This document shows positions 1,787 through 9,762 of a stretch of 35,581 nt of DNA, piece after piece. This DNA comes from Candidatus Eiseniibacteriota bacterium (GTDB lineage Bacteria; Eisenbacteria; RBG-16-71-46; JACRLI01). Every line of letters starts with the position of its first letter. Positions within the stretch are counted from its first letter, which is position 1. The notes below the pieces were generated by a model. That model made no database searches and was not told where the DNA came from. It saw nothing but the letters and a program-made list of their open reading frames with translations. The DNA lies in assembly GCA_025351485.1 (NCBI GenBank), contig JANXVU010000172.1, positions 1 to 35,581 on the forward strand, written 5' to 3'. The position numbers were made by a program, and so were the translations under genes.

Positions 1787-2540
1787 TTCCGACCACCTCC
1801 CTGGCAAGGCTGCGGTAACTCACGGATCCACTGCAGCCGGGGTCGTAGATCACAGCCGGCTTTCCAAAGCTGGGGGCTTCGCTGAGTCGGACGTTCCTGG
1901 GGATGACAGTCTTGTAAACTCTTTCCGCAAAGAACTTACGGGCCTCTTCTTCCACCTGCTGGCACAGGTTCAGGCGTGCGTCGTACATGGTGAGCAGCAC
2001 GCCCTCCATGCGCAGGGCCGGGTTCAACTTGGCCTGCACCCGGCGCACCACAGCCAGCAGTTGGGTCAACCCTTCGAGCGCGTAGTACTCACACTGCAAC
2101 GGCACGATCACCGAGTCGGAGGCCGTCAAGGTGTTGAGTGTAAGCAGCCCCAGGGACGGCGGACAATCGATGAGGATGTAGTCGTACTCCTCGCGCACCG
2201 GCTCGATCGCCATGCGGAGCCGGCTCTCGCGGTTCTCCATGTTGACGAGCTCGACCTCGGCCCCGGAAAGACGCTGACCCGCCGGCACCAGGTTCAGGTG
2301 CTGGATCCCCGATTCCATGATCGCTTCGCGGATAGGCACGTCCAGGATGAGCACCTCGTAGATGCTCTTTTCCTCGGAGTCGCCAGAAATGCCCAGGCCG
2401 CTGCCGGCGTTGGCCTGGGGGTCGATGTCCAGCAGGAGGACTCGTTTTCCGTCCATGGCAAGGGAGGCGGCCAGGTTGATGGCGGTGGTGGTCTTGCCTA
2501 CGCCGCCTTTTTGGTTCGTTATGGCTACAACCTTGCCCAT
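1776..2540 (-). CDS. parA: Chromosome-partitioning ATPase ParA (Soj)
   Basis: ParA is a deviant Walker-A ATPase that binds DNA non-specifically in its ATP form and provides the gradient along which ParB-parS complexes move; in several bacteria it also modulates DnaA. The protein (254 residues, usual for chromosomal Soj) begins MGKVVAITNQKGGVGKTTTA with signature lysine K11 and P-loop K16. The Walker B region reads YDYILIDCPPSLG. AGGA lies about 7 nt before the ATG. A parS site lies 31 bp upstream of the start codon, so occupancy by ParB could repress the operon. Between parA and rsmG is a 171-bp gap holding that parS and a large fold-back element, so parAB may have its own promoter. Confidence 0.97.
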   Translation of the reverse strand: MGKVVAITNQKGGVGKTTTAINLAASLAMDGKRVLLLDIDPQANAGSGLGISGDSEEKSIYEVLILDVPIREAIMESGIQHLNLVPAGQRLSGAEVELVNMENRESRLRMAIEPVREEYDYILIDCPPSLGLLTLNTLTASDSVIVPLQCEYYALEGLTQLLAVVRRVQAKLNPALRMEGVLLTMYDARLNLCQQVEEEARKFFAERVYKTVIPRNVRLSEAPSFGKPAVIYDPGCSGSVSYRSLAREVVGSDT

Positions 2541-2571
2541 TTCAATCCTTTAAGTATCCGTGTCGGGGTGG

Positions 2572-2587
2572 TGTTTCACGTGGAACA
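2572..2587. promoter_or_regulatory. parS site 1 (TGTTTCACGTGGAACA)
   Basis: The 16-mer differs at one position from the classical parS sequence TGTTTCACGTGAAACA. It lies 31 bp upstream of the parA start. ParB bound here would load onto origin DNA and could repress parAB. Confidence 0.93.
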
Positions 2588-2602
2588 CTTGGGTTCTGCG
2601 AC

Positions 2603-2682
2603 GGTCCCTGGGTGAGTTCAACCCCTCGGCTCAGGCTTCGCTTCGCTCAGATTCGCCGCTGGGTTGAACTCACCCAGGGACC
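2603..2682. repeat. Fold-back element copy 1 (parA-rsmG gap)
   Basis: A perfect 22-nt inverted repeat (2603-2624 and 2661-2682) encloses a 36-nt spacer. The spacer contains the conserved core that begins GGCTCAGGCTTCGC, continues TTCGCTCAGATTCGCC and spans about 2628-2657. The same core occurs at three other places in the window, each flanked by a different inverted repeat. It sits between two parS sites. It could form a hairpin in RNA or a cruciform in DNA, but there is no T-run. Confidence 0.9.
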
Positions 2683-2695
2683 TCGAGCGTCGCTT

Positions 2696-2711: not shown

Positions 2712-3326
2712 TCAGGCCCGGGCTACTATGAGGGTGGTCTTGGCTATTTCGACCCGTTCGACCCGTACTTCGCGCAGGCCAGCCGTCCGCAGGTCTTCTA
2801 CTATGGCTGGGTGGACCGATTCTTCCAGGGGCGCGTAGATGATGGCGTAGCCGTTGGGGGCCAGGTTGGAGGCGATCCGGCGTGCCAGTTTGGGCTCCAT
2901 GCGCACGGCCCTGACGGTTACGATGTTGAATCGGCGGCCACCGAGACTGGATTCCTCGTAACGCTCATTTAGCACTTCGCCTCGGCCGGGGGCAAGGGTT
3001 TCCAGCGCATCCCGCAGGAACAGGCACTTTTTCCCGGTAGCTTCCACCAGGACGCCGTGCCAGTCGGGCTCTGCGATCATGAGCGGAATAGCGGGGAAGC
3101 CGCCACCCGATCCGATGTCCAGGAGGTCCGCCGTTTCGGGAAGCCCGAGGACCACCGGGGCAATGGAGCTCAGAATGTGCTGCTCCAGGTCCTCCCGGGT
3201 CAGTTTTCGGGACACCAGGTTGATCCGCCGGTTGAAGAGGAGCAAATGGTCTATGAACCGCCCCAGATCTTTCTCCAAACCATCTCTGAAATTGACACTT
3301 AACTGGTCCAATGTAGATCTCAGCAT
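2712..3326 (-). CDS. rsmG: 16S rRNA (guanine-N7)-methyltransferase RsmG (GidB)
   Basis: RsmG methylates N7 of G527 (E. coli numbering) in 16S rRNA using SAM; its loss gives low-level streptomycin resistance in several bacteria. The 204-residue protein has the usual length. SAM-binding motif I reads [15 protein letters not shown] at about 68-82, followed by the acidic [12 protein letters not shown] strand, and VTVRAVR is the later family motif. The start codon overlaps the mnmG stop (ATGCTGA at 3320-3326), so the genes are translationally coupled. The stop codon touches parS site 2. The mnmG-rsmG-parA-parB order is the classical origin-proximal arrangement. Confidence 0.97.
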
Positions 3327-5212
3327 GGCCGCCCCGGGCCTTCTGCTCCGGTGCCATGTTCCACGTGGAACATCCTCAGGAAGCGGGATGCGTGCACCAG
3401 GAGCGCCGATGCGTCCGAGGGAGAGACCCCTTGGATTCGCATGGCCTGGCCCATGGATTTGGGGCGGGTACGCTTCAGCTTTTCCTTGGCCTCGGTCGAG
3501 AGCCCGTGCAGATCGGCGTCAAACAGGGCGTCCGGCAGGGCGTAGCCTTCCATTTTCCCGAGACGTTCAATCGCCCGCTGCTGGCGCCGGATGTATCCCT
3601 CGTACTTCAACCGCACCTCCACGCGTTCTCCCAATTCCACGCTGACGGAACCCCCGAACCCCAGGGCCCGCAGCTGCTCGTAACTTACAGCGGGCTGTCG
3701 CAAAAACTCCTGCCCACTCATGCTCTCGCGCCTTCCGATCAATCCCTCGGAGGCGTCTGCGCCCACGCGAACCTTTCCAAGGCGCACGATCTCGGCTTCA
3801 ACGGCGCAGCGCCCGCCTTCCAGGATCGCGAATTCGTCGTCGGTGATCAGTCCGCGCCCGTGCGCGATTCCACCGAGACGTTCGCCGGCATTGTCATGGC
3901 GCAGCACCAGCCGGTGCTCCGCCTGGGACGTAAAGAGCCGGTACGGCTCGTGCGTTCCGCGCAGCACCAGATCGTCGATCAGAACGCCAATATAGGCCTC
4001 CGAGCGGGAGAGCACCAGCGGCTCCCAGCCCAGGATCTTGAGAGCGGCGTTGGCTCCGGCCATCAGTCCCTGCGCGGCAGCTTCCTCGTAACCCGAAGTG
4101 CCATTGATCTGTCCGGCAAAGTAGAGTCCGGGAACCCGGCGGCTTTCCATGGTCGGATCCAGGTGGAATGCGGGCGGGATGAAGTCATATTCCACGGCGT
4201 ACCCGGGCCTCAGGATCCGCGCATTCGCGAGCCCCGGCAGGGTGCGAACCAGCTCCAGCTGCACTTCTTCCGGCAGCGAAGTGCTGAGCCCGTTCACATA
4301 CAGCTCGTCCGACTCGCGGCCCTCCGGCTCCAGAAAAATCTGGTGAGAGAGTTTCTCCGGGAAGCGCGCGACCTTGTCCTCGATCGAGGGACAGTAGCGG
4401 GGGCCCACACCCGAGATTCGGCCCGTAAACAAAGGGGATTCCGAGAGGTGCTCGCGGATGAACTCGTGGGTCGCTTCCGTGGTGTGAGTCAGGTAGCAGG
4501 GAACCGGGTCCAGCGTGATTCTCTCTGAAAAGTGCGAAAACGGGCGCGGATCTTCGTCGCCCCACTGGGCCTTGAGCTGATCCACTTCCGCCGAAGCGAG
4601 CGAGAGCCTCGGGGAGGTGCCGGTCTTGAGCCGCGCGATCGGAAAGCCCAGTTCGGTGAGCGAATCGGACAGCCCGCGCGCCGCAATTTCCCCGTTCCGC
4701 CCCCCGGAGAAACTACGCATCCCTATGTGAATAAGTCCGTTAAGAAACGTGCCCGTGCAGATGATCACCGCCGCCGCCCGGATCTCCCCACCGGTCCCGG
4801 TCACCACCCCGACCACCCGGCCGCCGTCCACGAGCAGCGCTTCCGCCAGGCCCTGGCGAAACTGAACGCGCTCCGCCCGCTCCACCACCCGGCGCATCTC
4901 CACCTGGTAGGCGCGCTTGTCCGCCTGGGCGCGCGGCGACCACACCGCCGGGCCACGGCTGCGGTTGAGCATCTTGAACTGGATGCCGGTGCGATCGATG
5001 ACCCGGCCCATGGCCCCACCCAGCGCGTCCAACTCGCGCACCAACTGGCCCTTGGCAAGCCCGCCAATGGCGGGGTTGCAAGACATTTGGGCCACGGAGT
5101 CGAGGTTGCCCGTGAGGAGCAGCGTCTCGCACCCGAGGCGGGCCGCGGCCAGGGCCGCTTCGCAGCCGGCATGGCCGGCGCCTATGACAAGGACATCGCA
5201 ATCGCGTTTCAT
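3320..5212 (-). CDS. mnmG: tRNA uridine-5-carboxymethylaminomethyl modification enzyme MnmG (GidA)
   Basis: MnmG is the FAD- and NADH-using partner of MnmE; together they make the (carboxymethyl)aminomethyl group on wobble U34 of several tRNAs. The protein has 630 residues, typical of the long form. The FAD-binding Rossmann motif [10 protein letters not shown] is at 11-20, and the conserved MSCNPAIGG segment with C45 follows. [21 protein letters not shown]-like text lies near 370, and the C-terminal helical domain binds MnmE and tRNA. The last residues include MFHVEH, which is parS site 3 translated. No Shine-Dalgarno precedes the ATG; a -10-like TAGTAT lies 9 nt upstream on the minus strand (5222-5227), so a short-leader transcript is possible. 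It lies 50 bp downstream of mnmE, so the two are probably co-expressed. Confidence 0.97.
3357..3372. promoter_or_regulatory. parS site 3, inside the mnmG coding sequence
   Basis: The perfect palindrome TGTTCCACGTGGAACA lies within the last codons of mnmG and encodes MFHVEH there. Bacteria often carry a parS in this position, so the short C-terminal extension of MnmG is kept for DNA reasons rather than protein reasons. Confidence 0.93.
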
Positions 5213-5262
5213 GGAAGGTGGATACTAGCGGTTTGGGGCCGGGGCGGCCACCGCGGTGCGCG

Positions 5263-6624
5263 CTACTTCCCGATGCAGAAGCGGCTGAAGATTTCGTTGA
5301 GCACGTCGGCGCCGACCCCGATGCCCACCGCTTCATCCAGCGCCGCGACGGCCTCGCGCAATTCGAACGAAGCGGTATCCAGGAGCTCCTTCATTCGGAG
5401 CCGTTCGGCAGCTGCGCCCAGCGCTTCGCGGGCGGCGCGCAGTGCCGTTTCCTGGCGCACCGTTCCCACCAGCACCGGCTCGCGCAGAGAATCGCCCACG
5501 AGGATCCCCCGCAGCGCCTCCACGAGAAGCGCAAGCCCTTCACCGGTCGTGGCGCTGGTGCGCACCGGATCGAGGCCACCGATCGACTCCGCGCTCGCGT
5601 CCGGCGCGAGATCAATCTTGTTCCACGCCACCAGCCCGCGCCGCCCGGCCACCATTTCAGCCAGCGCCTCATCGCCGGGATGGGCCGAAACGCTGGAGTC
5701 CATCACCAGCGCCACCGCGTCGGCCGCGGCGATTTCGCGTTTCGCTCGCTCCATGCCCGCAAGCTCCAGCGAATCCGCGGTGCCGGGGTTGAGCCCGGCC
5801 GTGTCCACGAGCAGCACCGGCACACCGCCGATGTCCAGCGTCTCGCGAAGCACGTCGCGGGTGGTGCCGGGAATTTCACTCACCAGTGCGCGCTCTTCCC
5901 GCAGCAGCGCGTTGAGCAAGCTGGATTTTCCGGCGTTGGGCCGCCCGCACAGCACCACTCGCGCGCCCTCTCGCAGCGCGCGGCCCGCGCCCGAGGTGGC
6001 CAGCAGCTTGTCCACTTCCCCGGCCAGCGCATCTGCCTGGGTGGCGCGTAAATTCCAATCAAAGTCGTCGGGCAGTTGGTCCTGGAAATCCAGGAACGCT
6101 TCGCAGTCCAACAGGATCTCCCGGGTGCGCGCGGCCATGTCCTGGAGCACGCGCGACAGACCGCCCTCGAGCCGGGCGAGCGCCGATTCCCGCGCGCGCG
6201 CGGTCGAGGCCCCCACAAGATCCACCACCGACTCGGCCTGCGCGAGGTCCATGCGCCCATTCAAATACGCGCGGCGAGTGAACTCGCCGGGCTCGGCCAT
6301 CCGCCCGCCCGCCTGGAGCAGCGCCTCCATCAAAGCGCGCGAGGCGGCTCCGCCTCCGTGGACGATGAACTCCACCAGGTCTTCGCCGGTGTAGCTCTTC
6401 GGGGCGCGATAGAGCGCCACCACCACTTCGTCCAGGACGCCGCCGGAGGCGTCCACGACCTGCCCGTGAGAGAGCGTCCAGGCCGGCCGCTCCGCCAAAG
6501 GTTGCCGGCCGCGGAACACTGCGTCCGCCAAAAAAACAGCCCGGCGGCCGCTGACTCGAACAAGAGCCAGGGCCGCCGGGCCTGAAGCGGTAGCCAGTGC
6601 GACGATCGTATCGTCGAGGTTCAT
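5263..6624 (-). CDS. mnmE: tRNA modification GTPase MnmE (TrmE)
   Basis: MnmE is a dimeric, potassium-activated GTPase that uses a folate derivative and works with MnmG to modify wobble U34. The protein has 453 residues. The N-terminal tetrahydrofolate-binding domain starts MNLDDTIVALATASG. A helical domain surrounds an inserted G domain with G1 GRPNAGKSS near 226-234, the switch sequence EIPGTTRD, G3 DTAG near 273 and G4 NKID near 333. The protein ends with the family signature CIGK; its cysteine is conserved. GGAG lies 4-5 nt before the ATG. The gene starts 10 bp after the jag stop, so it belongs to the same operon. Confidence 0.97.
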   Translation of the reverse strand: MNLDDTIVALATASGPAALALVRVSGRRAVFLADAVFRGRQPLAERPAWTLSHGQVVDASGGVLDEVVVALYRAPKSYTGEDLVEFIVHGGGAASRALMEALLQAGGRMAEPGEFTRRAYLNGRMDLAQAESVVDLVGASTARARESALARLEGGLSRVLQDMAARTREILLDCEAFLDFQDQLPDDFDWNLRATQADALAGEVDKLLATSGAGRALREGARVVLCGRPNAGKSSLLNALLREERALVSEIPGTTRDVLRETLDIGGVPVLLVDTAGLNPGTADSLELAGMERAKREIAAADAVALVMDSSVSAHPGDEALAEMVAGRRGLVAWNKIDLAPDASAESIGGLDPVRTSATTGEGLALLVEALRGILVGDSLREPVLVGTVRQETALRAAREALGAAAERLRMKELLDTASFELREAVAALDEAVGIGVGADVLNEIFSRFCIGK

Positions 6625-6634
6625 CGCGCTCCGG

Positions 6635-8104
6635 TTACGCCCCCGGAGGGGTGTAACCCCGACGCTTGGCCTTGGTGTTCCGTCGGAAGGACTTTCCGGT
6701 CGGAGCCTCGGCTTCAGCCTCGACGCGCTCGGGCACCGTCGATTCGATCACGGAGCTATCGATGAGCCGCTGCTCGAGCCTCTTGGACTCTGCGATCTTG
6801 GCCTGGAGTTCCGGGGTCATCTCGACCTGCGGGCCACGGTCGCGGTCGCGGTCCCGATCGCGGTCCCGGCCGCCACCGCGGCGGCCGCCACGATCGCGGT
6901 CCCGGTCACGTCCGCCGCCACCACCGCCACCGCTGCTGCGGCGCGGGCGGTCGAAGTCGGTCGGGAAATCTTCCATGTCCGGCTCCTCGGCAACCGGCGC
7001 GGCAGCGATGGGAGCCACTTCCTCGTCCTCCGCTTCCACCGGGTAGGATCCGTTGGTCTGCGGGGCTTCGGAGGCTGCAATGGTTTCGTCGTCGACCATG
7101 CGCTCGCCGGCGACCGGCGGCTCGTCGAAGTCGTCCGCGCTCAGCGGACGGCGGCCGCGGCCACCGCGACGGCGGCGTCCCCGACCTTCCCGCGACTCGC
7201 GGGCTTCGCCGAACTCGGCGGTGGGCTGCGCATCGGTGTCTTCGGCGGCTTCCTGCTCCGATCCGCGGCGGCTGCGATAGCCGGCCACGTCGAACACCAC
7301 CCGCACGCGGTTGCGCTCGTGCAGGCTCGACATGCGGGTCAGCAGGTGCTCGAAGGCCGTGAGCGTCTCGCCGCGGCGTCCGATAAGGATACCGTCCATG
7401 GGACCGGTCTCCACGGAAAGCCACACGTCGCCCTCACGGTCCTCGGCGGTCACGGCCGCCTCGCAACCCATCAGGCGAAGCATCTCCTCGGCCTTGGTGC
7501 GCACCAGTTCCATGCGCTGCTCCATCGGAAGGGCTTCGGCGCGGGCCGCTGACTCGCGGGCCTCGTCGCGCTCTCCGCGCTCCGGACGGTCATCGGTGTC
7601 CTGGCGGTCCTGGCGCTCCGGACGCTCAGGGCGCGCGGGCCGTTCGCTTCGCGCCTGGACCGGGGCCGCCGCCTTGTCGCGGTCACGGTCGCGGTCACGG
7701 TCACGATCGCGCCCGCCACGCTCGCCTCTTTCGCGGCCGGGCTGGCGTTCACGGTCGCCGCGTCCACCGCGGTCGCCCCGGTCGCGTCCGCCTTCACGCT
7801 GCGGGCGGTCGCTGCTGCCGGCGGCGCGTTCCGGACGTTCGGCCCGCTCGACCTTGGGTGCGTCGGCGAGGTTCTTCAGGGTGGAACGTACGCGCGCGGG
7901 CCGTCCGCCGAACAGGCCCAGAAGCTTGGGCTTGCCCTCGTCCAGCACTTCGATCCGCACCTTGTCCCGGGTGACCCGGAGTTCGGTGCAGGCCTTCAGA
8001 ATTGCCTCTTCGACCGATCCGGCCGTGACCTCGACGCTGTGGCGCTTGGAGGTTTCGCGGGCGGGGCCTCGGTTCCTGTCTCGATTGTAACGGGGTGATC
8101 TCAT
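6635..8104 (-). CDS. jag: Jag/KhpB-like RNA-binding protein lacking R3H, with Arg/Asp and Arg/Gly tracts
   Basis: Jag (KhpB, EloR, SpoIIIJ-associated) is an RNA-binding protein normally made of Jag-N, KH and R3H domains and encoded next to yidC. The start chosen is the ATG at 8104 (489 residues), which has GAGGA 5 nt upstream; an ATG at 8116 overlaps the yidC stop but lacks a Shine-Dalgarno. Jag-N is visible at about 20-75 (SVEVTAGSVEEAILKACTEL, LLGLFGG). A linker of Arg/Asp/Gly and Glu/Arg repeats spans about 85-190. The KH domain spans about 195-280, with the GxxG-type loop DGILIGRRGETL near 236. After it no R3H signature can be seen. Instead there is an acidic stretch, RGRRRRGGRGRR, runs of glycine, and RDRDRD tracts, then a short helical tail rich in K and R. 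The protein is about twice the usual length and probably largely disordered outside Jag-N and KH. Confidence 0.88.
   Translation of the reverse strand: MRSPRYNRDRNRGPARETSKRHSVEVTAGSVEEAILKACTELRVTRDKVRIEVLDEGKPKLLGLFGGRPARVRSTLKNLADAPKVERAERPERAAGSSDRPQREGGRDRGDRGGRGDRERQPGRERGERGGRDRDRDRDRDRDKAAAPVQARSERPARPERPERQDRQDTDDRPERGERDEARESAARAEALPMEQRMELVRTKAEEMLRLMGCEAAVTAEDREGDVWLSVETGPMDGILIGRRGETLTAFEHLLTRMSSLHERNRVRVVFDVAGYRSRRGSEQEAAEDTDAQPTAEFGEARESREGRGRRRRGGRGRRPLSADDFDEPPVAGERMVDDETIAASEAPQTNGSYPVEAEDEEVAPIAAAPVAEEPDMEDFPTDFDRPRRSSGGGGGGGRDRDRDRGGRRGGGRDRDRDRDRDRGPQVEMTPELQAKIAESKRLEQRLIDSSVIESTVPERVEAEAEAPTGKSFRRNTKAKRRGYTPPGA
6836..6930 (-). repeat. Low-complexity tract encoding Arg/Asp/Gly repeats
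   Basis: Hexameric GGTCGC/GGTCCC-like units repeat within the jag gene and encode RD dipeptides and RGG-like stretches. A second such tract covers about 7676-7720. Such tracts expand and contract by slippage, so length differences between strains are likely. Confidence 0.75.
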
Positions 8105-8112
8105 GGGGTTCC

Positions 8113-9762
8113 TCATGAAGCGACCGCCGCCGCGGCGTTCGGATTTGGACGCGGACGGTTCTGCATTTGCTGCAGGGCGGTCAGAATGTTGGTGACGGTC
8201 CAATACAGGACCAATCCCGACGGCAGCCGGTAGAAGATAAACAGCATCACGACTGGCATGATGTAGGCCATCGTGGCCTGCCGCGGGTCCACGGGGGTTA
8301 GCTTCTGCTGCCAGATCATGGTGCCAGCCATGACCAGGGGCAGAATGTGCAGGGGAAACCCTCCGACCGTAGCGAGCACGTCGGGCGCGCTGAGGTCGGT
8401 GATCCAGCCGAAAAAGCCGGCCTGCCGGAGTTCGATGGCGCCGTTGAACAGATTGTACAGGGCGATCATCACCGGCATTTGAACGAGCAGGGGCAAACAG
8501 CCGCCGAAGGGATTCACGTTGTTTTCCTTGTACAACGCGAAGATCTCCTTGTTGAGCCGCTCCTGGTCGTTCTTGTACTTCTCCTTCAGCCGGTCCATCA
8601 CCGGCTGAAGCTCCTGCATCTTGCGCATCGAGCTCATCTGAGCGTTGCTCAGCGGCCACAGGACCAGCCGAAGGGCCACCGACAGCACGATGATCACGAG
8701 CCCAAAGTTGGGCACGAACCGGTGCGTGAGGGTGAAGAACTTCAGCAGTCCGCGGCTCAACGGCGTCATGATCGGCGCCATGAAGCTCCAGAGCCCGCCG
8801 ACATCGAGAAGGCGTGGAAGATTGTGTCCCGCGGCATTCAGTTTCTGATAGTCCACGGGTCCCACGTACATCTCGTAGGCGATCGAGCTCTTGCCCAGCC
8901 ACGGGTACTCGAAGCGGACCCCCGTCTGCTTCGTGTCCGGGTGGCCCAGGGTGGTGACTCCGCCGATAGCCTGTGGGGGAAACAGGAATCCCAGGGCGAA
9001 GTACTTGCTCCGCATCAGCGCCCATTCCACGCTGCCGGAATGGACCTTGGACGGGGCCTTCTTGAATCCTCCGAGGAAGTCCTGCGACAGCTCCGCGCCC
9101 AGCAGGGCGTCGGAGGCTCCGTGCTGGACGTCTTCGGCGGAGTTGGTTTCGGTGTCGAGCTTCCAGGAGCGCCACTGCACCACCAGGCGGTCGTCGGGGC
9201 CGGGGCTCTCCGTCTCCCAGGTCACGCCGCAGGTGTATCCGTCGTCGGGAATGCTGTAGCGAACGCGAAGGAGCGTGCCGGAGGTGTCGCGGGTCTCGTA
9301 GGTGAGGAGTCGGGCGGCCGCGTCGCGGCGGTCTTCGGTCAGCTTGAAGGTGGCCTGGCTGAAGTCGGTCTCGGTCCCCTTGTGGCGCAGGGCCAGCGCC
9401 TCAAGCCCGCTGGAGTCGGGAATCAGCTCCAGGGGGTGCCGGTCGCCCCGGCGGTAGTCTTTCAATACCCAGTCCACCGGGCGGGCGCCGCGGCTGGAAA
9501 AAACGATCCTCCAGGTGCGGGTGTCCACGGAGGTGAGCTGTTCGGGGGCCGGCGCCGACATGGTGGCGGGCGCGGCCGGGGTGAAGTTCGGGGACAGCGT
9601 ACCGGCCGAAGGCTGCGCCGGGGCCTGGGCCGTGCTCGTCTGCTCCCGGACCTGGACCTGGGCAGCCTGCCGTTCAAGGCCGGTGCGTTGAAGCATAAAC
9701 TGCCAGCCGAAAAGAATGACTCCGGCCAGGGCGATGGCAATCAGTAGGCGACGATCATCCAT
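8113..9762 (-). CDS. yidC: Membrane protein insertase YidC
   Basis: YidC inserts and folds inner-membrane proteins alone or with SecYEG. The 549-residue length and layout are those of a diderm YidC: an N-terminal transmembrane helix (LLIAIALAGVILFGWQFML at about 6-24), a large periplasmic beta-domain (about 60-330), then the conserved five-helix insertase core. The core carries the hydrophilic-groove arginine near 365 (VALRLVLWPL), the cytoplasmic coiled hairpin with MSSMRKMQELQPVMDRLKEKYKND, and the NPFGGCLPLLVQMPVMIALY helix. The stop overlaps the possible upstream start of jag; yidD ends 9 bp upstream. It is part of the rpmH-rnpA-yidD-yidC-jag operon. Confidence 0.97.
   Translation of the reverse strand: MDDRRLLIAIALAGVILFGWQFMLQRTGLERQAAQVQVREQTSTAQAPAQPSAGTLSPNFTPAAPATMSAPAPEQLTSVDTRTWRIVFSSRGARPVDWVLKDYRRGDRHPLELIPDSSGLEALALRHKGTETDFSQATFKLTEDRRDAAARLLTYETRDTSGTLLRVRYSIPDDGYTCGVTWETESPGPDDRLVVQWRSWKLDTETNSAEDVQHGASDALLGAELSQDFLGGFKKAPSKVHSGSVEWALMRSKYFALGFLFPPQAIGGVTTLGHPDTKQTGVRFEYPWLGKSSIAYEMYVGPVDYQKLNAAGHNLPRLLDVGGLWSFMAPIMTPLSRGLLKFFTLTHRFVPNFGLVIIVLSVALRLVLWPLSNAQMSSMRKMQELQPVMDRLKEKYKNDQERLNKEIFALYKENNVNPFGGCLPLLVQMPVMIALYNLFNGAIELRQAGFFGWITDLSAPDVLATVGGFPLHILPLVMAGTMIWQQKLTPVDPRQATMAYIMPVVMLFIFYRLPSGLVLYWTVTNILTALQQMQNRPRPNPNAAAAVAS

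Follow-up and report, generated by a model that had tools for sequence, protein, structure and literature searches.

The jag locus

The window analysed here, a stretch of DNA of 35,581 nucleotides taken at its full length, contains the gene order yidC-jag-mnmE-mnmG-rsmG, which is the classic order around jag (khpB/eloR). Adjacency to yidC and mnmE, by which Jag/EloR/KhpB loci are recognized (PMC10117718), was found at this locus. The coordinates of the genes and of the segments of the Jag protein are collected in Table 1. An alternative in-frame ATG at 8116 extends the protein by 4 residues, to 493 aa, and forms an ATGA overlap with the stop codon of yidC; this ATG is probably the true start. 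The source genome (G000) is a single MAG of 186 contigs and 3.44 Mb that is 98.55% complete, and the window gene, lying in its native yidC operon, is the only KhpB of that genome. Because the locus, the Jag_N domain and the KH domain all agree, we assign the protein as the KhpB orthologue of this genome. The most fitting description is that of an R3H-less KhpB variant, not of a canonical member.

Table 1. Coordinates of the genes of the jag locus, of the segments of the window Jag protein and of the two jag genes compared with it
Feature	Residues	Position	Strand	Basis or remark
jag (khpB/eloR) CDS		6635-8104	(-)	489 aa plus stop
Jag_N	26-73	7886-8029	(-)	Pfam PF14804, 59.3 bits (cut-off 25); AF2 pLDDT 92-97
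Mixed-charge Arg-rich linker	81-192	7529-7864	(-)	AF2 pLDDT about 46-55 over most
Linker RD tract GGRDRDRDRDRDRD	about 130-143	7679-7720	(-)	composition
Type II KH	193-275	7280-7528	(-)	PF13083; AF2 pLDDT about 95
Stub helix YRSRRGSEQEAA...	276-297	7214-7279	(-)	AF2 helix, falling confidence
Basic patch GRGRRRRGGRGRR	307-319	7148-7186	(-)	composition
Acidic disordered stretch	324-385	6950-7135	(-)	AF2 pLDDT < 50
Gly/Arg/Asp tail block	386-425	6830-6949	(-)	AF2 pLDDT mostly < 50
Predicted C-terminal helix	431-455	6740-6814	(-)	AF2 pLDDT about 82-84
Basic end SFRRNTKAKRR	472-482	6659-6691	(-)	sequence
yidC		8113-9762	(-)	5' of jag in the operon; PF02096 + PF14849
mnmE		5263-6624	(-)	3' of jag, next gene
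mnmG		3320-5212		after mnmE
rsmG		2712-3326		after mnmG
jag of G111 (L174)		2028-2690	(-)	between yidC and rsmG
jag of G245 (L182)		3082-3915	(+)	order yidC-jag-mnmE-mnmG

Folded domains of the window protein

An earlier sequence-only reading of this DNA had called the Jag_N and KH domains clear, and our searches bear this out. The Jag_N match lies far above its cut-off. The KH match, over residues 199-269, reached 27.8 bits (E 2.4e-6), just short of the gathering score of 32.1. The loop IGRRGET is unbroken, with GxxG at residues 242-245 (7370-7381), and I241, G242 and G245 are invariant in the KH alignment. In our own alignment, Leu254 of the window KH domain aligns with EloR L239, the site of contact with KhpA. 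The NCBIfam model Jag_EloR (NF041568) was matched only over model positions 2-143 of 203, with 91.7 bits against an equivalog cut-off of 145, a strict cut-off that an R3H-bearing member of the class (L012, genome G001) also fails at 134.1 bits and that L018 passes at 156.6 bits.

AlphaFold2, run with an input alignment of 35 Firmicute-type Jag sequences, predicted Jag_N and KH confidently and a tail that is mostly disordered. Foldseek matches of the protein were the KhpB structures 3GKU, 9LRG and 9LRI together with the KH domain of ribosomal protein S3. A canonical KhpA gene, at 72 bits, is present in the same genome.

Absence of the R3H domain

The same reading had noted that the R3H domain normally found at the end of Jag is not visible, and four tests agree that it is absent. 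Pfam detected no R3H in jag even at E ≤ 10. A profile of R3H was made from members of the class and Clostridia-type Jags and extended over the fetched loci (127 R3H sequences). With filters off, this profile found no R3H in the six frames of positions 5001-8500, where the best hit was an 11-residue chance match (E 0.86); the jag tail scored below 0 bits against it, and no match was obtained in the C-terminal half. A hidden or frameshifted R3H is ruled out by this search. Searched in six frames, the entire genome (3.44 Mb) likewise yielded no R3H, which rules out its relocation to another gene; the same search does detect R3H in 41 of the 47 genomes of the class. The AlphaFold2 model contains no R3H fold. 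A second, full Jag elsewhere in the genome, which would have told against the loss, was also looked for and none was found, the remaining KH matches being KhpA, an RNase Y-like protein and an S3-like protein.

The point of loss can be placed closely. Homology stops at about YRSRR, and the predicted stub helix occupies the place where helix 1 of R3H would begin. In the window gene the R3H region has been lost directly after KH.

Composition of the linker and tail

The acidic stretch, RGG segments and RD tracts are as the sequence-only reading had described them. The whole protein contains 5 RGG and 18 RD motifs. The linker between Jag_N and KH consists of 28% Arg and 27% Asp plus Glu, with a net charge of +2 and a charged fraction above 50%. 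After KH, residues 281-385 are acidic and rich in Ala and Pro, with a net charge of -19 even when the basic patch is counted. The Gly/Arg/Asp block that follows holds 38% Arg, 20% Asp and 32% Gly and includes two RD tracts (RDRDRDRGGRRGGGRDRDRDRDRDRG, 399-424). Over the whole tail the net charge is -10. Most of residues 298-430 are predicted to be disordered, with a pLDDT below 50 over most of 298-425. Composition and AlphaFold2 pLDDT together identify disorder with Arg-rich multivalent segments in this protein.

The tail has the G+C pattern of coding sequence (0.78/0.57/0.78 by codon position) in the same frame as the neighbouring genes. The RD tracts use varied synonymous codons (CGC, CGT and CGG; GAC and GAT) and therefore do not appear to be a recent repeat expansion, although picking pure RD runs biases this comparison. 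In the source genome (RD)4 occurs in jag and at one other site only. That site (L165, G000:C46:56739-56762) belongs to a small protein whose N-terminus is signal-like and whose last residues are EDRDRDRDRD.

In f9 and f10 the tails of Jag (L005, L018, L157, L028, L034 and L153) share a conserved basic end, [WF]G(R/K)(R)x(R/K)(P/A)... The end of the window protein, SFRRNTKAKRR, bears a weak likeness to this [WF]GRRxRPxxxRR end, a likeness that 87 of 5000 shuffles equalled in score; a relationship between the two is suggestive only.

Comparison within the class

Comparison with orthologues shows the window gene to be exceptional, since R3H was present by six-frame search in 41 of the 46 other class genomes. 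The six without R3H are G000, G017, G029, G034, G036 and G038. In four of these (G017, G029, G034 and G036) Jag_N is absent as well. Two of the four, G034 (100% complete) and G036, belong to family f11 and have apparently lost the whole jag gene. G038 was rejected as a second R3H-less member, as jag is cut off there by the end of the contig, just where R3H begins. The source genome is thus the only one in the class with a contig-complete jag and no R3H. Because the only other R3H-less jag is contig-broken, we take this lineage, known from one MAG, to be a real exception. In three other genomes (G009, G004 and G010, loci L007, L022 and L024) the contig ends within the Arg-rich jag linker and R3H lies on another contig; it seems that this repetitive linker breaks assemblies.

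Arg-rich disorder is distributed differently among the families. The Jag proteins of f2 have an Arg-rich linker of 156-354 residues between Jag_N and KH, keep R3H, and stop soon after that domain. Those of f10 and f6 have a short linker and carry an Arg-rich tail of 186-215 residues behind R3H, and in f9 an Arg-rich linker and an Arg-rich tail occur together with R3H. The Jags of f8, f5, f3 and f4 have no Arg-rich tail. Several families thus combine Arg-rich disorder with R3H, and the tail therefore probably predates the loss of that domain.

The order to which the source genome belongs was sampled with 21 genomes, 20 of them in f2, the source genome being the sole member of f1 compared. A tree of Jag_N plus KH (140 columns, long branches) is too short to fix the position of the window protein, whose branch is long and does not group with f2 of the same order. 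At the f2 loci (L009, L012, L020 and others) the KH loop has changed from LIGxxGET to LLTGxxGE(V/T), while R3H and a very long Arg-rich linker are kept. In the sister family it is KH, not R3H, that has diverged.

Independent parallels in a wider census

A wider census covered 232 genomes, each at least 90% complete, 104 of which have Jag_N. Genomes with Jag_N and no PF01424 match were inspected one by one. Two of them, G111 and G245, which are unrelated to the window lineage, carry at the native jag locus a Jag that lacks R3H and whose Arg-rich tail comes immediately after Jag_N and KH. The tail of the G111 protein contains 25% Arg and 19% Gly and has a net charge of +13. R3H is found at 68-76 bits in all 18 other genomes of its family with jag, and basic tails are already present there; within the family R3H was lost in G111 alone. 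The NCBIfam match of the G111 protein stops at model position 140, near the 143 of the window protein. Its KH loop is also degraded (LLSDKGG), whereas the 18 family-mates keep GxxG, so that RNA binding could be fading in G111 rather than being replaced. The G245 Jag, from a single genome with no relatives in the comparison, combines a strongly acidic linker (net -22) with a short tail, RSRRRR (GGRSRRRRESPKP). Deletion of R3H with an Arg-rich tail kept or grown has occurred independently at least twice and probably three times.

Other candidates were rejected. The long frames of G063, G198, G134, G185 and G075 are read as FapA-type (DUF342) proteins, and in G112, G238 and G161 the class profile detects a divergent R3H at 19-29 bits. 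Two census genomes have a degenerate Jag end of about the length of R3H. Short frames with Jag_N only were seen at L173 (G098, 77 aa) and L180 (G227, 65 aa); both genomes are small and nearly complete and belong to one family.

Interpretation and alternatives

In the common Jag architecture, Jag_N, KH and R3H are joined by variable unstructured linkers (PMC10117718). In Streptococcus pneumoniae, EloR L239 contacts KhpA I61, and EloR without R3H still binds KhpA in a two-hybrid assay (PMC6403258). Disordered regions rich in Arg and Lys are stated in a review to add multivalency for RNA condensation (PMC13269538), and acidic clusters curb non-specific RNA binding in Nop15 (PMC8348266). With this background we lean slightly towards a reading in which the window protein is a KhpA-partnered KhpB whose mixed-charge Arg tail would have taken over the generic RNA contact of the lost R3H. 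The KH domain would pair with KhpA and provide a limited choice of sequence, and the generic contact with RNA that R3H makes elsewhere would come from the linker and tail, both mixed in charge and rich in Arg. The acidic block may damp non-specific binding, and RNA-dependent clustering would be possible. The tail would have come first, R3H would then have become dispensable, and it would finally have been lost.

The proposal of the sequence-only reading that disorder replaces R3H is plausible from the sequences compared, and it gains weight from the two independent parallels in G111 and G245. Yet the R3H-bearing Jags of f2, f6, f9 and f10 already have Arg-rich disorder, and for that reason the order given above fits better than one in which R3H was lost and disorder filled in. 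Several points weigh against our preferred reading: the protein is known from one MAG and one family member, its whole tail is net negative, the KH loop of G111 is degraded and the tail of G245 is short. As a generalization, we put forward only tentatively, and as a doubtful proposition, that the R3H folds of KhpB may have been swapped repeatedly for disordered Arg-rich tails (in the window lineage, G111 and G245), a pre-existing basic tail making the fold redundant and disorder functionally replacing a folded domain.

The main alternative is that R3H was lost without replacement. The KhpA-KH heterodimer would then suffice, and the Arg segments would serve for spacing, partner binding or association with the ribosome or YidC, or would be near-neutral low complexity. 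We regard this as possible though unlikely. Relatives with R3H also have Arg-rich segments, which therefore need not be a substitute, KhpA binding survives in R3H-less EloR as cited above, and other lineages have Jags in which R3H is degenerate and KH is not followed by an Arg-rich tail (L172, L179, L175, L181 and L176). Against these stand the Arg-rich tail found directly after KH in three of three outright deletions of R3H and the near exclusivity of (RD)4 to jag in the source genome.

The window protein has a long branch in the tree, and the two f11 genomes have neither Jag_N nor R3H, as would be expected if jag were on its way out here too, its constraint relaxed after the need for KhpB activity was lost. 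We consider this improbable, as the frame of 489 codons is intact, GxxG and Jag_N are conserved, the start overlaps the stop of yidC, and KhpA is kept. An artefact of assembly or binning, in which the R3H segment was dropped from the draft or the gene is chimaeric, could be suspected in a single MAG of 186 contigs, especially since contigs of relatives often stop within or close to the Arg-rich linker and so break jag (G004, G009 and G010). Such an origin is very improbable: jag is an open frame with the character of coding sequence and has the right spacing to yidC and mnmE, the assembly is continuous across it, R3H lies on no other contig, and G111 and G245 show this architecture again.

Significance and comparison with known systems

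KhpB is among the few candidate global RNA chaperones in bacteria without Hfq or ProQ, and the contribution of R3H to KhpB is not settled. Natural R3H-less KhpBs with KH, KhpA and an Arg-rich tail offer a ready-made domain-swap experiment. With them, the question of whether disorder can replace a folded RNA-binding domain can be tested directly in a small protein whose partners are known and whose relatives have solved structures (3GKU and 9LRI). In the literature searched, mostly outside subscription journals, we did not find any KhpB described that combines the loss of R3H with an Arg-rich tail.

The nearest known systems are the KhpB/EloR/Jag proteins of Firmicutes (S. pneumoniae, Enterococcus and Clostridium symbiosum, PDB 3GKU), with which the window protein shares the operon, Jag_N, an unstructured linker, KH with GxxG, and KhpA; the C. 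symbiosum structure is its best match in the PDB. Unlike these proteins it has no R3H, and its linker and tail are Arg-rich with RD and RGG tracts. The KH region also superposes on KhpB/EloR of Thermus thermophilus (PDB 9LRG, and 9LRI with RNA) over about 105 columns at 26-28% identity. The Thermus chains have 147-158 residues, and the part left unaligned is read as R3H. A resemblance of type only, with no homology, is seen to the condensing Rho of Bacteroides thetaiotaomicron (PMC13269538), which likewise carries charged disordered basic and acidic blocks on a folded RNA-binding core. The eukaryotic Arg-enriched mixed-charge domains of Greig et al. 2020, as they are cited in PMC13269538, have a similar alternation of Arg and Asp, an analogy of composition only.
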